From Candidatus Altimarinota bacterium (GTDB lineage: Bacteria; Patescibacteriota; Gracilibacteria; Absconditabacterales; Absconditicoccaceae): 5,197 nt of DNA. Within the stretch, counting starts at the first letter, position 1, and the number at the start of each line of letters is the position of its first letter. A program made the position numbers and the translations under genes. Below are positions 27 to 5,197 of this stretch, one piece after another. The notes beneath the pieces were generated by a model, which had not been told where the DNA came from, did not search any database, and saw only the letters and a list, made by a program, of their open reading frames with translations. Location of the stretch: contig JAMOTU010000168.1 of the NCBI GenBank assembly GCA_027062165.1, positions 1-5,197 on the forward strand, given 5' to 3'.

Positions 27-3000
27 ATGACTGAAAAAAAGTTTCCTAAAAAGTATAACCATGACTTTGAAGAACAAATATATGAAGAGTGGAATCAAAA
101 GGGATATTTTTCTCCAGAAAAATTGGAAGAGATAAAATGAAAACTTAAAGATAGATTTATGATATCAATGCCTCCTCCTAATGTTACAGGAGTTCTTCAT
201 CTATGACATGCTTTGATGCTTTCTATTGAGGATGCTATGGTAAGATATGCTCGTATGAAATGAAAAAAAACTTTGTGGATTCCGTGAACAGATCATGCGT
301 GAATAGCTACTCAAGTAGTAGTAGAAAAAAAATTGGCGAAAGAAGAGTGAAAAACTAGACATGATTTAGGTAGAGAAAAATTTTTAGAAAAAGTTTGGGA
401 ATGGGTTAGATTTTCTAGATCAACTATAATTTCTCAAATTAAGAAAATGTGAGCTTCTTGTGATTGGTCTAGAGAACAATTTACACTTTCAGAGAGACTT
501 TCGAGAGCAGTTAGAAAATCTTTTTCAAATTTATATAAAAAATGAAAAATTTATCAATGAGAATATATTGTTAACTGGTGTCCTAGATGTCAGACTGTTC
601 TTTCTGATATTGAAGTTAAATATATCCCAGAAAAAGGAAAACTTTATTATATCAAATACTTTGTTGAAGGTAAATGACAAGCAATAACTGTTGCAACTAC
701 TAGACCAGAGACTATTTTTGCAGATGTAGCTATTGCTGTTAATCCAAGAGATAAAAGATATAAAAAATGGATTTGAAAAAATGTATATATTCCAATAGTA
801 AATAGACCTATTCCAGTGATTGCTGATGAAGAAGTAGATCCTGCATTTGGAACAGGAGCTTTAAAAATTACGCCTACTCATGATCCAGATGATTTTGAGA
901 TAGGAAAAAAACATTGATTGCCTATGGATAGATTTGCGATAGACTGGGAATGAAAATTTACAGAATTAGCTCCTGATTTTTTGGTATGAAAACCAGTAGA
1001 AGAAGTTTTTGATAACCTTATTCAAGTATTAGACGAAATAGGTAATTTAGAAAAGATAGAAGATTATGAACATAATGTGCCTCATTGTGATAGATGCTGA
1101 ACTATAGTTCAGCCTATGGTTTCTAAACAATGGTTTGTAGATGTTAAAGAATTTGCTCAAAAATCTATAGAAGCTGTTAAGAAAGGCGATACTAAGATAT
1201 TGCCTGAAAGATTTAATAAAACTTTCTTTGATTGGTTGGAAAATATTAGACCTTGGTGTATTTCTAGACAACTTCGGTGGTGACATAGAATTCCTGTTTG
1301 GACTTGTAAGAAAGGTCATATTAATGTTTTTGATGATCAGCAGATTTTAAATAATTGGTTAGATGTTGATCAAAAGTCTGATATAATTTTGTCCTTGATT
1401 ATATTCAATTTAATTGCAGATAGTAGATTGAAAAATCCATTTAATATAGAAGAATTAATAAAATTATTAACTACACCTTCTTTGACTCCTCAAGAAGGTA
1501 GAGTAGTAGATGTTTATTTGAAAGTTTACAGGCAAATGCTTCAAGAGTTATCTATTGATGAAAAAACAAAAAATAAGTTAAGTAGTGAAATTAAAAAAAT
1601 AGAAAGTATTTTTGATTTAGAGAATGAAAAAAATTTAATAAAAGCTTGAGAAAAACTTGTAGATATTCTAGAGAATAGTTATTTGATAGAAAAAGTTGGA
1701 GATAAATATAGATTTACTTTAATTTGTCAGGAATGTTGAGATAAAGATTTGCACCAAGAGGAAGATGTTTTGGATACTTGGTTTTCATCAGCACTTTGGC
1801 CGTTTAGTGTTTTGTGATGGCCTGAAAATACTGATGATCTTAAGGAATATTATCCTAATGATGTGTTAGAGACAGGATATGATATATTGTTTTTCCGAGT
1901 TGCAAGAATGATGATGATGTGATTTGCAAATATGAATGAAGAACCTTTTAAAAATGTTTATCTTCATGGATTAGTAAGAGATGCAAAAGGAGAAAAGATG
2001 TCAAAGAGCAAATGAAATGTAGTAGATCCATTGAAAGTAATAGAAAAATATGGTGCTGACAGTCTAAGATTAGCACTTGTTAGATGAGTAACACCAGGTA
2101 ATGATATAAAATATTCTGATGAAAAGGTGGAAGGAAACTGGAAATTTTTGAATAAGCTTTGGAATGCTTCAAGGTTTGTATACTTAAATGTAAATCAAGA
2201 ATGAAATATAAAATTTGAATATGATTTACTTTATGAAGATATAAAAAACAACGTCGAAGAACTTGGAGAGTTTGATAAATGGATTTTAGCAGAACTTGAT
2301 GAATTGATAAATCAGGTAGAAAAATATATGGATAAATTTATGCTTTGAGAAGCTATTAATAAAATTGTAGATTTTGCTTGGTCACTTTATTGTGATTGGT
2401 TTATAGAAATTTCAAAAATAGAAAAGAGTGAATTAACTTTAAAAATTTTAGTATATGTACTAGGAACTATTTATAAACTTTTGCATCCTTTTGCTCCTTT
2501 TGTAACAGAAAAATTATGGCATTTGGTAGGTTTTGATTGAGATTTAATTATTCAAGATTATCCTAAGCCAATATGATGATTACAAAAATCTGTAAAAATT
2601 AATTTATTTATTGATTTAGTAGGTGAGTTTAGAAAGCTTAGAAATAAATTATGATTAAAACCTCATGAAACTGTAGATGTAGTAATACAAGCTAATGAAG
2701 ATTATATAAAATTTTTGTCAAATAATATTAACTTATTGAAAACTTTAATAAAGGCTGATAATGTTTTGCTAGATAGTTGAAAAAGTGAAAGTATATTCGA
2801 ATGATATGATGTTAGTGTAGTTTATGATATAAAACTTTGATTAAAAGGTAATAAGAAGTTATCTAAATCAGAGCAGATAGAAATACTAGAAAAAAAGTTG
2901 AAAGAAGAAAAACAATTTTTACAAACATTAAAAAATATTTTATCTAATGAAGAATTCTTAAAAAATGCACCAAAAAAAGTGGTAGAGCAAAAAAGAAAAA

Positions 3001-3068
3001 AGATGGAAGAAGTAGAAAAGAAGATTTTAAAATTAGAGGTAGAGTTGAAAAAATTAAAGGCATTATAA
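27..3068 (+). CDS. valS: Valine--tRNA ligase (ValRS), class I, read with TGA=Gly
   Basis: Cytoplasmic enzyme that charges tRNA-Val with valine using ATP and hydrolyses mischarged Thr-tRNA. The 1013-aa product spans the whole family architecture. The class I HIGH motif is HLGH at residues 58-61 (its Gly is TGA) and KMSKS is at 657-661. The CP1 editing domain shows TTRPET (224-229) and THDPDDF (284-290). R226, T229, K280, T282, D286 and D289 keep the spacing I recall for the Thermus editing pocket, offset by ten. WGHRIPVW (418-425) and DTWFSS (583-588) complete the core. The anticodon-binding domain covers roughly 745-870, and a Lys/Glu-rich C-terminal coiled coil (about 945-1013) is the usual tRNA-binding arm. 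There are 31 in-frame TGA codons; the stop is TAA. Residues 417 (CGG) and 624 (CGA) fall on conserved Trp positions and are probably Trp. An extra segment of about 135 residues (432-566) is unusual. The ATG is chosen because the following residues match the family N-terminus; no in-frame stop is visible upstream, and no Shine-Dalgarno is present. Confidence 0.97.
1275..1277 (+). other. CGG codon at conserved Trp of ValRS (probable CGG=Trp)
   Basis: Codon 417 of valS. The surrounding protein reads RQL-x-WGHRIPVW. In ValRS from E. coli and most other organisms this segment is RQLWWGHRIP, with Trp at x. Arginine here would replace a near-invariant active-site-region residue, whereas Trp restores the consensus exactly. 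Confidence 0.8.
1320..1724 (+). other. Large insertion within the ValRS zinc-knuckle region
   Basis: Residues 432-566 of ValRS lie between two metal-ligand-like pairs, C427...H431 (CKKGH) and C567-x2-C570 (CQECG), just before DTWFSS. In ValRS enzymes that have a zinc ribbon here, the two knuckles are typically separated by roughly 15-20 residues; E. coli-type enzymes have a short loop without cysteines. Here about 115 residues are added. The segment is rich in Lys, Glu, Leu and Ile and reads as several helices, ending in a stretch around 542-566 that could form a beta hairpin. It contains only one TGA codon and matches its surroundings in frame and base composition, so it looks like a resident domain rather than a recent insertion. 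I recognise no named domain in it. Confidence 0.75.
1896..1898 (+). other. CGA codon at conserved Trp of ValRS (probable CGA=Trp)
   Basis: Codon 624 of valS. The surrounding protein reads ILFF-x-VARMMMMG, which corresponds to the family consensus FFWVARMIMMG with Trp at x. Arginine inside this hydrophobic stretch of the catalytic core would be anomalous. It is the only in-frame CGA in the gene. Confidence 0.8.
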
Positions 3069-3098: not shown

Positions 3099-4859
3099 AT
3101 GTTTAAGAAAATAATAAGTACAGTGTTTGCTATTCTAGTGGCATTAGTTGTTATATTAGGTATTTTTAAAATAGTTCCTGAGTATATGCAACAGCATCCT
3201 TATTATTATGAAATGTTAAAATCCGGGTTAGTTTGGAAAGTTATGGTTAATAATATTTTGATTAGTTTTTTAACTGCGTTGTTTTTATATTTTGTTTTTA
3301 ATTCTTCAGTTAATAGAAAAATTATTCGGTTTGTTGGTACTTTGTATTTGATGTTGTTTGTGTTTTGAGTGCTTTATATTAAATTTAAGTGAGAGATAAT
3401 AGGTTCTTGATTATTTATGTGGTTTATAAATAGCTTATTGATGTTTGTAATAATTATAATTTTTATTACATTTTTACTTTTAATCTGAACTTGGATTAAA
3501 GAAAGATTTTTAAAATTGCCAACTGTAGATATTTTTTGAGTAGTTACCAACTTTTGAATTGGATTGTCTGTATTTTTGTTATTGAACTATTTATTGATTT
3601 TATTAAATATTTTGCATCCTTTAATAAGTTGGGTTTTGTTGATTGTAGCTATTTGGTTGATTTACTTTAAAAGAGATTATCTAAAAGTAAATTTAAGGAT
3701 TATAGAAGAGGTTTTGAATAAATGATTTGATTATAATGAAAAGTCAGCTTTATATGTAATTTTTGTTATATTATTATTAACTTTTTCTTTGATGTATTTA
3801 AATTATTGATTTTTGATGAGTTGGATTCCTTATCCTACAGCTTGGGATGCTAATCACGCTTATATGTTTTATCCAAAAATGTGGGCACTTAATCATTGAT
3901 TTTATTGGAATGAGCCTGGTATGAATACAACTCCTTATCTTTGGTTAGCTTATATTACGTATTGGTTTTCGTTATTTGTTCCTTTTTATGATAAATTTTG
4001 GATAGCTCCTGATACTTGGGCTGTAGAAATGAATTTTTTAAGTGGAATCTTTGTTTTAATTTTTTGATTAGCTCTTGTGCGAGAAGTTTTGAATATTATA
4101 GATAAACTAAATAATGGTGATTCCAAAATTAACGATAATATTAAACAAAGTTTATTTTTGTTATGATGGTTTTTGTTATTATTATGGTTGACATCTGGTA
4201 TGGGAGCATTTTTAGTATTTGTTGATAATAAAACCGATTTGTGAGTTTTAACTTTGATAATATTAGCACTTTATGGTTGATTTTTGGCTTTTAGAAAGAT
4301 TATAGAGGGAGAGGGTAAGGGAGGTCTGAAGAGAGAGGAGAGGTCCGAAGAGATAAATATAGAGAATTGAAGTTATAATAAATTCTCTCCAGATTATATT
4401 TCTTTTCAGAATTCTTCGAACATTATCTCCTATCTTTTGCTTTCTGCATTCTTTTTCGCTGTAGCTGTAGCTTCTAAGCCTACTGCTTTCTTTGATGTTG
4501 TTAATTTTGCTTGATTTGTTTCTATATACTTTCTTGGTATTTTTGTTGGTATTTTTATATTTTTGGCAGCTATTTTTGTATTAGGCTATCTTCAGTTTAG
4601 AGGAATTAAAAATTATTTTACTAAAGAAATTTCTATATTACTATTTGGAAGACCTGCCGTGTTGACTGGTATTTTAGGAATTTTTGAAGTAATTCTTAAA
4701 AGAAGTTTTAAGTATATTCCTTATCTTTTTATATGGGGTATAGCTTTTGTAATATTTTTAGTGATGATTAAATGAGTTTGGCTAATATGAGAATTGATTT
4801 TTTATCCTGATAGATTTAAATCATTGAAAGACATTTTTATGACATTATTTTTTGGATAA
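3099..4859 (+). CDS. Polytopic membrane protein, probable GT-C-type glycosyltransferase
   Basis: The 586-aa product is dominated by about 13-15 hydrophobic membrane segments (for example 5-23, 48-67, 76-94, 105-130, 150-190, 217-238, 279-296, 312-328, 381-397, 443-459, 468-500 and 540-568). GT-C enzymes move sugars from polyprenyl-phosphate donors to acceptors on the outer face of the membrane. Three features point to that fold: a loop after a membrane segment with PTAWDANHAYMFYPK around D250, similar to the acidic first catalytic loop followed by YHLP in ArnT/PMT-like proteins; an NKTDLGVLTL segment (377-386); and ASKPTA (458-463), similar to the family's KxTA motif after a helix. The match is by eye, so donor and acceptor are unknown; a general membrane protein remains possible. 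The start is the first ATG after an in-frame TAA at 3084. There are 17 in-frame TGA (Gly) codons. CGG at codon 77 and CGA at codon 328 are probably Trp. A charged loop of about 40 residues (399-440) is encoded by an unusual purine-rich tract. Confidence 0.85.
4321..4353 (+). repeat. Short direct repeat in a purine-rich coding tract
   Basis: GAGGTCTGAAGAGA (4321-4334) recurs as GAGGTCCGAAGAGA (4340-4353), with one mismatch and an offset of 19 bases. The offset is not a multiple of three, so the two copies encode different residues. The repeat sits in a G+A-rich stretch (about 4300-4370) that is clearly richer in G than the rest of the gene. It encodes the Glu/Lys/Arg-rich loop of the membrane protein. 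It may reflect slippage duplication or a small insertion. Confidence 0.6.
4361..4388. repeat. 8-bp inverted repeat inside the membrane protein gene
   Basis: AGAGAATT (4361-4368) and AATTCTCT (4381-4388) are perfect reverse complements separated by a 12-base loop. The pair sits at the switch from the purine-rich tract to a pyrimidine-rich stretch (about 4381-4450). There is no T-run characteristic of a terminator, and the open reading frame continues through it. In AT-rich DNA such a stem may be chance. Confidence 0.4.
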
Positions 4860-4862
4860 GAT

Positions 4863-5197
4863 ATGAAAATAGCTATTTTGTGATGAACTTCATGATTTGG
4901 AAAATGGTTAGCTAAACAATTTAAAGAATTTTCAAAAAAATATAATGTTGATCTTGATGTTTGGATAACTGGAAGAAATCAAATTAAATGAGAACAGACA
5001 GCAAAAGAGTTAGATGTTAAATTTACAACGAATAATGTCGATGCTGTTAAGGAGGCAGATATAATTGTTATTTCTGTTACTATTTGAAATACGAAAAGAG
5101 TAATAAATGAAATATGACCTTATTTGAAATATTGATCTATATTGGCAGATGTAACTTCTGTAAAAAAAATGCCATATGAAGAAATGAATAAATTTAA
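4863..5197 (+). CDS. Prephenate dehydrogenase-like (TyrA-like) oxidoreductase, 5' part
   Basis: The first 111 codons of a gene that runs off the window. The N-terminus is a Rossmann dinucleotide-binding fold: MKIAILGGTSGFGKW, with a glycine loop at residues 7-13 in which G7, G8 and G11 are TGA codons. It then has ITGRN at the end of the second strand, ADIIVISV, and ADVTSVK followed by an MP segment. The DVTSVK motif and overall order match the prephenate dehydrogenase family, which oxidatively decarboxylates prephenate to 4-hydroxyphenylpyruvate in tyrosine synthesis; the GGTxGFGKW form resembles archaeal TyrA proteins. Arg rather than an acidic residue after the second strand hints at NADP use (inference). 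The catalytic C-terminal domain is outside the window, so another 6-phosphogluconate-dehydrogenase-like or F420-dependent reductase cannot be excluded. There are seven in-frame TGA codons. The ATG lies three bases after the preceding TAA, suggesting co-transcription and coupled translation. No Shine-Dalgarno is present. Confidence 0.8.

Follow-up and report, generated by a model that had tools for sequence, protein, structure and literature searches.

The window, by which we mean the whole stretch of 5,197 nucleotides that was analyzed, holds a valS gene for valine--tRNA ligase (ValRS), a membrane-protein-like gene, and the start of a prephenate-dehydrogenase-like gene (4863-5195; PF02153, 52.6 bits) that continues past the window end (Table 1). 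The valS product matches the profiles NF004349 (1047.9 bits) and TIGR00422 (976.2 bits), both above their cut-offs, and its reading frame is open only with TGA as a sense codon. Its in-frame codons include 1 CGG, 1 CGA, 1 CGT, and no CGC, alongside 31 AGA, 2 AGG, 23 TGG, and 31 TGA. The membrane-protein-like gene had no match in Pfam or NCBIfam at an E value of 0.001. Since its two CGR codons (CGA and CGG together), at 3327 and 4080, lie opposite Lys in the relative found in genome G002, they back neither a Trp nor an Arg reading.

Table 1. Features of the window and the residues or codons with which they align (1gax, ValRS of T. thermophilus)
Feature	Position	Strand	Remarks
valS, valine--tRNA ligase	27-3068	+	1013 aa with TGA read as Gly (31 TGA)
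CGT control codon of valS	252-254	+	Aligned with Arg of 1gax
CGG codon 417 of valS	1275-1277	+	Trp site (1gax); 9 TGG, 6 CGA, 1 CGG in 16 orthologues
CGA codon 624 of valS	1896-1898	+	Trp site (1gax); 5 TGG, 11 CGA in 16 orthologues
Membrane-protein-like gene	3099-4859	+	586 aa, hydrophobic; G002 relative at 37% identity
CGG codon 77 of gene 3099-4859	3327-3329	+	Lys in relative G002
CGA codon 328 of gene 3099-4859	4080-4082	+	Lys in relative G002

The original prediction held that valS contains exactly two in-frame CGR codons, that both stand on Trp residues of ValRS, and that the CGT near the start of the gene sits where Arg is expected. The two codons, their coordinates, and their residue numbers proved exact. 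In the T. thermophilus enzyme both positions are occupied by Trp, in the contexts ISRQL-W-WGH and TGYDILFL-W-VSRM, the residue opposite the CGT is Arg, and the remaining Arg codons of valS are all AGA or AGG. An alignment of homologues at residues 417 and 624, which had been proposed as a check, contains nothing but TGG, CGA, and CGG at these two sites. The placement of the organism in the Absconditabacterales was likewise correct, as it shares both order and family with SR1 bacterium RAAC1, and the named ValRS matches are SR1 bacterium RAAC1_SR1_1 (48%) and Absconditabacteria STD2_163 (46%).

All 49 genomes of the order belong to one family, and in 47 of them the search matched ValRS or a related synthetase. 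From 32 loci we assembled 16 distinct, full ValRS orthologues (score above 600 bits, length above 900), leaving out two duplicates and 14 lower-scoring loci that represent other synthetases or far relatives. CGR codons were entered in the alignment as X, so that they did not steer it. CGR occurs in at least one orthologue at 36 valS columns; 27 of these 36 also contain TGG and 1 contains an Arg codon. Counted by codon, the 16 orthologues have 137 CGR, of which 127 lie in TGG-containing columns. Among pairwise cells, CGA stands opposite Trp 1010 times, CGR 586 times, and Arg 5 times (n = 1842), and CGG opposite Trp 86 times, CGR 42 times, and Arg 0 times (n = 153); the corresponding counts of Arg are 593 of 1061 for CGT, 3736 of 5934 for AGA, and 388 of 777 for AGG. 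When the 15 other orthologues are considered, 15 of 1021 valS columns contain only TGG, CGA, or CGG with at least 4 TGG, and the probability that two randomly placed CGR codons would both land on such columns is 2.0e-4, a value that is slightly circular since CGR was allowed in the column definition. Ahead of its CQECG motif, the window ValRS also has roughly 130 inserted residues (residues 434-562; window 1326-1712), in place of about 17 between the two matched parts of T. thermophilus ValRS, and 112 to 129 of the 129 insertion columns are filled in the 16 orthologues of the order.

A set of 30 tryptophanyl-tRNA synthetase (TrpRS) sequences, drawn from at least 48 matches in the order, gave a similar distribution. 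At the one column where all 30 outgroup sequences have Trp, the order has TGG in 21 sequences, CGA in 5, and CGG in 4; CGR was coded as Trp in an earlier alignment and as X in the final one, and the counts at this column agree. At three Arg columns CGR fills 0 of 90 cells in the order, but 33 of 90 in outgroups from the phylum. Counting against a Trp reading, 10 of the 19 CGR codons in the TrpRS genes of the order lie off Trp-majority columns. The assembly from which the window comes, which is 76% complete, yielded no TrpRS.

Codon inference over the whole genome, another proposed check, was carried out on a sample of it, made up of the window and 60 further stretches with 210,481 readable bases in all (27 of the stretches being read as N), and was positive at that scale. 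Comparison samples were taken from G002 (400 kb), RAAC1 (380 kb readable), and two standard-code genomes of the same phylum, G104 and G052 (400 kb each). Of overlapping reading frames only the longest was kept, with a minimum of 60 residues, and pairs were best BLASTP matches with at least 30% identity. Opposite the CGR codons of the present genome, G002 has Trp in 12 cells, Arg in 2, and other residues or codons in 12, of which 4 are CGR (n = 26), versus Trp in 0, Arg in 164, and others in 115 opposite CGY and AGR (n = 279; Fisher 9e-15, a rough value, as is the one below, because aligned cells of one gene are not independent). Opposite CGR of the present genome, RAAC1 has Trp in 7 cells, Arg in 0, and others in 10 (2 of these CGR), and the RAAC1 counterparts of TGG in the present genome are CGA at 24 and TGG at 18 of 64 sites. 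By distinct site there are 38 CGR codons, 5 lacking a same-order counterpart and 33 possessing one, which is TGG at 16, CGR at 4, Arg at 2, and something else at 11; the 13 of 33 sites with neither Trp nor CGR opposite (2 of the 13 being Arg) count against a Trp reading. Aligned with G104 and G052, CGR of the present genome gave a thin sample of 13 cells (Trp 1, Arg 0), and CGR of RAAC1 gave Trp 27, Arg 2, and other 37, versus Trp 2, Arg 111, and other 121 for CGR when G104 and G052 are aligned with each other in both directions (Fisher 3.5e-18). TGA of the present genome stands opposite Gly in G002 in 219 of 299 cells. Usage of Arg codons in the sampled frames is 232.8 AGA and 11.9 CGT per 10,000 codons. 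AGG was briefly a candidate Trp codon, with 5 of 41 cells opposite Trp in G002 in a first pass that counted opposite-strand shadow frames; it was rejected since, in the longest non-overlapping frames, AGG stands opposite Arg in 22 of 32 cells and opposite Trp in none.

The assembly (1.08 Mb, 242 contigs) yielded 18 tRNA genes with Rfam and ARAGORN, including tRNA-Trp(CCA) and tRNAs with GCG, CCG, and UCG anticodons. A tRNA for Trp with a UCG or CCG anticodon had been anticipated, and genes of both kinds carry A1:U72, G73, and no A20, like tRNA-Trp, while the GCG tRNA carries the Arg marks G1:C72, A73, and A20. The identity marks considered here (G73, no A20, and A/G1:U72) are those used by Shulgina and Eddy (2021; PMC8629427). 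In fetched loci across the order, all 17 distinct CCG and UCG tRNAs (12 CCG and 5 UCG, those of the present genome included) have A/G1:U72, G73, and no A20, in a sample that is not neutral because most were gathered by similarity to the present genes, although the CCG tRNAs of RAAC1 and G002 and the UCG tRNA of G015 were reached by other routes; GCG, UCU, and CCU tRNAs have A73 and A20 in 11 of 11 cases. The original prediction had named two contrary outcomes, CGR codons at conserved Arg residues and an ordinary tRNA-Arg as the sole reader of CGR. Neither was seen, given the empty Arg cells of TrpRS and the Trp marks on the UCG and CCG tRNAs.

With the anticodon masked, the CCG tRNA and the tRNA-Trp(CCA) of this genome share 76% identity, the highest value that the CCG tRNA reaches with any of the fetched anticodon families. 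The UCG tRNA is nearest to His (0.67), Gly-UCA (mean 0.67), and Trp (0.65-0.62), with no clear donor. A tRNA-Gly(UCA) is not among the 18 tRNAs of this incomplete assembly, and 5 distinct genes for it occur in the fetched loci of relatives.

The placement of the codons, the tRNA genes and their marks, and the exchange of TGG and CGR between relatives are observations, and they make it very probable that this organism uses CGA and CGG as Trp codons, read by UCG and CCG tRNAs with Trp marks that are predicted to be charged by TrpRS, with CGU and CGC encoding Arg through the GCG tRNA and TGA encoding Gly. Trp charging of these two tRNAs and Trp insertion at CGR are inferences. The reading of CGR as Trp that had been put forward from the window is thus supported by homologue alignment, genome sample, and tRNAs alike, and the code itself is already known.

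NCBI lists the Absconditabacteria code as table 37. The screen to which the original prediction referred is that of Shulgina and Eddy (2021; eLife 10:e71402, PMC8629427), in which CGA and CGG as Trp together with UGA as Gly were predicted for six species of Absconditabacteria with UCG and CCG tRNAs; the assignment is repeated in a 2026 paper (PMC13092985). The present genome agrees with that description in its codons and amino acids, in UCG and CCG tRNAs with G73, no A20, and A/G1:U72, in a GCG tRNA for CGU and CGC, in Arg codons that are chiefly AGA, and in low GC. It differs in that it may fall outside the six species of the 2021 screen. Since the code had been predicted there, we regard this genome as a further member rather than as the bearer of a new code. 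Table 25, the code of SR1 and Gracilibacteria, shares UGA as Gly, which is supported here in valS and in the genome sample, but it reads CGA and CGG as Arg, whereas the present genome has them at Trp sites; of the features that table 25 leads one to expect, CGR at Arg sites was exceptional in this genome and in the order, and Arg-type UCG or CCG tRNAs were absent among those fetched from the order. Annotation of such genomes with table 25 would put a wrong Arg at Trp sites. A 2023 study of phages of these bacteria used table 25, and neither CGA nor CGG appears in it (PMC10746230). In Anaerococcus and an RFN20 clade of Bacilli, CGG is captured by a CCG tRNA that has Trp features, as it would be here, but these are Firmicutes, in another phylum, and CGA stays Arg in them (PMC8629427, PMC13092985). 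Sense-codon reassignments are few in bacteria, and those in the literature covered rest on computation. A search of literature titles, with most subscription journals lying outside it, returned no experimental test of the code and no TrpRS study of the group among the matches listed.

One alternative is that CGR is ambiguous, being mostly Trp and sometimes Arg, because the UCG and CCG tRNAs keep C35 and G36, bases that ArgRS accepts in ordinary tRNA-Arg. These anticodon bases are indeed common to the two tRNAs and ordinary tRNA-Arg, and Shulgina and Eddy (PMC8629427) leave ambiguous translation of CGR to experiment, which they say alone would settle it. We nevertheless think this unlikely, considering that G73 and the lack of A20 hold in all 17 tRNAs and that CGR occupies Trp positions under strict conservation in ValRS and TrpRS, where ambiguity would probably be damaging. 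That CGA and CGG are still Arg, with the valS sites being real Trp-to-Arg replacements or sequencing errors, would suffice for two sites taken alone, which could be mutations, and fits the 2 of 26 CGR cells opposite Arg in G002. This explanation becomes very improbable when set against an exchange of TGG and CGR repeated at 27 valS columns in 16 orthologues, CGR at the invariant TrpRS Trp in 9 of 30 genomes, its absence from the TrpRS Arg columns, and UCG and CCG tRNAs without Arg marks. A reassignment of CGG alone, as in Anaerococcus, with CGA left as Arg, would explain why CGG of the present genome is matched to Trp in G002 more cleanly (8 of 12) than CGA (4 of 14, plus 4 opposite CGA), but it is hardly credible when valS codon 624 is TGG or CGA in 16 of 16 orthologues, when CGA of RAAC1 stands opposite Trp in 27 of 65 cells and opposite Arg in 2 of 65 in the standard-code genomes, and when the UCG tRNA of the present genome itself carries Trp marks.

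TGA also occurs inside trpS in families f79, f81, f86, and f88 of the same class. In all 13 trpS genes from these sister families the invariant Trp column is TGG, and of their 20 CGR codons none falls where any of 37 outgroup sequences has Trp, while 5 lie at Arg-majority columns. Searching the sister families for Arg-type UCG tRNAs by similarity to a single outgroup gene gave little, and patterns were used instead. A pattern search of 25 genomes for UCG and CCG tRNAs gave 27 matches (18 UCG, 9 CCG), not every one of which need be a tRNA, since reversed control patterns matched a few times; ARAGORN called tRNAs in all 18 that were fetched (14 of 18 UCG, 4 of 9 CCG). A UCG match was present in 9 of 19 sister-family genomes (2 of 11 in f81, 6 of 6 in f86, 1 of 1 in f88, 0 of 1 in f79), with none found by pattern in the other 10. 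The fetched UCG tRNAs, 9 from sister families and 5 from standard-code families of the class, have A20 in 14 of 14 cases and A73 in 13 of 14, and the 9 found in sister families with TGA as Gly are all Arg-type.

Since the UCG tRNAs found in the sister families are Arg-type and their trpS Trp column is TGG throughout, UGA as Gly looks to be spread more widely than the CGR reassignment. This distribution of codons and tRNA genes would assign the CGR change to the branch leading to the Absconditabacterales. In the mechanism that we propose, the Arg-type UCG tRNA still present in several sister genomes would have been lost in the order, and the CCG tRNA would most likely have arisen from tRNA-Trp by duplication and a change of anticodon. 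The window is a clear further case of the code, with a control inside the class in the form of Arg-type UCG tRNAs in sisters with UGA as Gly. Outside the order, 3 of the 4 fetched CCG tRNAs are Arg-like. The fourth, from genome G172 of family f79 (locus L326), combines Trp marks (A1:U72, G73) with an Arg mark (A20) and is perhaps an independent or intermediate case of CGG as Trp; Shulgina and Eddy (PMC8629427) mention that CGG may be Trp in some Gracilibacteria.

What the present analysis adds to the known code is this sister-family contrast, a lead in the anticodon-reading loop of TrpRS, and valS genes in which CGR outnumbers TGG. The terms "TrpRS" and "tryptophanyl" occur 0 times in the text of the 2021 paper (PMC8629427). 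In a co-crystal of the E. coli enzyme (2025; PMC12135181), C35 is read by T225, D226, and K274, and A36 by S227 together with the backbone of T225. The base-35 contacts T225 and K274 are kept in 30 of 30 TrpRS sequences of the order. Position 226 is Asp in 13 of 30, and at position 227 there are 2 sequences with Ser, 13 with Thr, 10 with Ala, and 5 with another residue, so that a hydroxyl residue is retained there in 15 of 30. The phylum outgroups have Asp at 226 in 29 of 30 and Ser or Thr at 227 in 21 and 8, class members without TGA in trpS have Asp and Ser in 6 of 7 each, and the sisters with TGA as Gly have Asp in 8 and Gly in 5 of 13 at 226 and Ser in 8 and Asp in 5 at 227. The intact D226-S227 pair accordingly occurs in 2 of 30 sequences of the order, 21 of 30 of the phylum, 5 of 7 of the class, and 3 of 13 of the sisters, where Asp226 and Ser227 are mostly in different sequences; the significance of these contrasts is overstated by kinship, since the sequences of the order come from related species. 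As the pair is also rare in sisters without CGR as Trp, the loop is no clean switch. C35 is common to the CCA, CCG, and UCG tRNAs, whereas base 36 is A in the first and G in the other two, a pattern that fits a TrpRS that would have retained its base-35 contacts and relaxed its reading of base 36.

Fifteen valS columns contain only TGG, CGA, or CGG and thus count as invariant for Trp; there, 5 of the 16 orthologues, from three genera, have more CGR than TGG: RAAC1, STD2_163, and L031 with 10:5 each, and L032 and L034 with 8:7 each (the five loci being L019, L020, L031, L032, and L034). The corresponding ratio in the window is 2:13. Shulgina and Eddy (PMC8629427) likened the CGA and CGG changes to earlier stages, with the codons still rare, and mention one assembly in which both approach UGG. 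We tentatively suggest, while leaning somewhat against it, that the capture of CGR by Trp was accompanied by a rebuilt TrpRS, one enzyme that keeps T225 and K274, has lost the A36-reading serine, and charges CCA, CCG, and UCG tRNAs, and that CGR, as the main Trp codon over UGG in at least three genera, would represent a completed sense-codon takeover rather than an early stage. The rarity of the intact D226-S227 pair in the sisters lowers the odds of this suggestion. The loop offers a bench-testable case of a synthetase acquiring a second anticodon set.

Two other features of TrpRS were considered and rejected. An Ala-to-Ile change before the loop, present in 30 of 30 sequences of the order and 0 of 30 outgroups, had appeared specific to the order but also occurs in all 20 additional members of the class and is therefore not tied to the CGR change. 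A duplicate TrpRS as the source of new charging was set aside as a general explanation, with a single TrpRS in 44 of the 46 genomes of the order that had a match. The two exceptions are G023, with two matches above the family cut-off, and G009, with one such match and a weak fragment.
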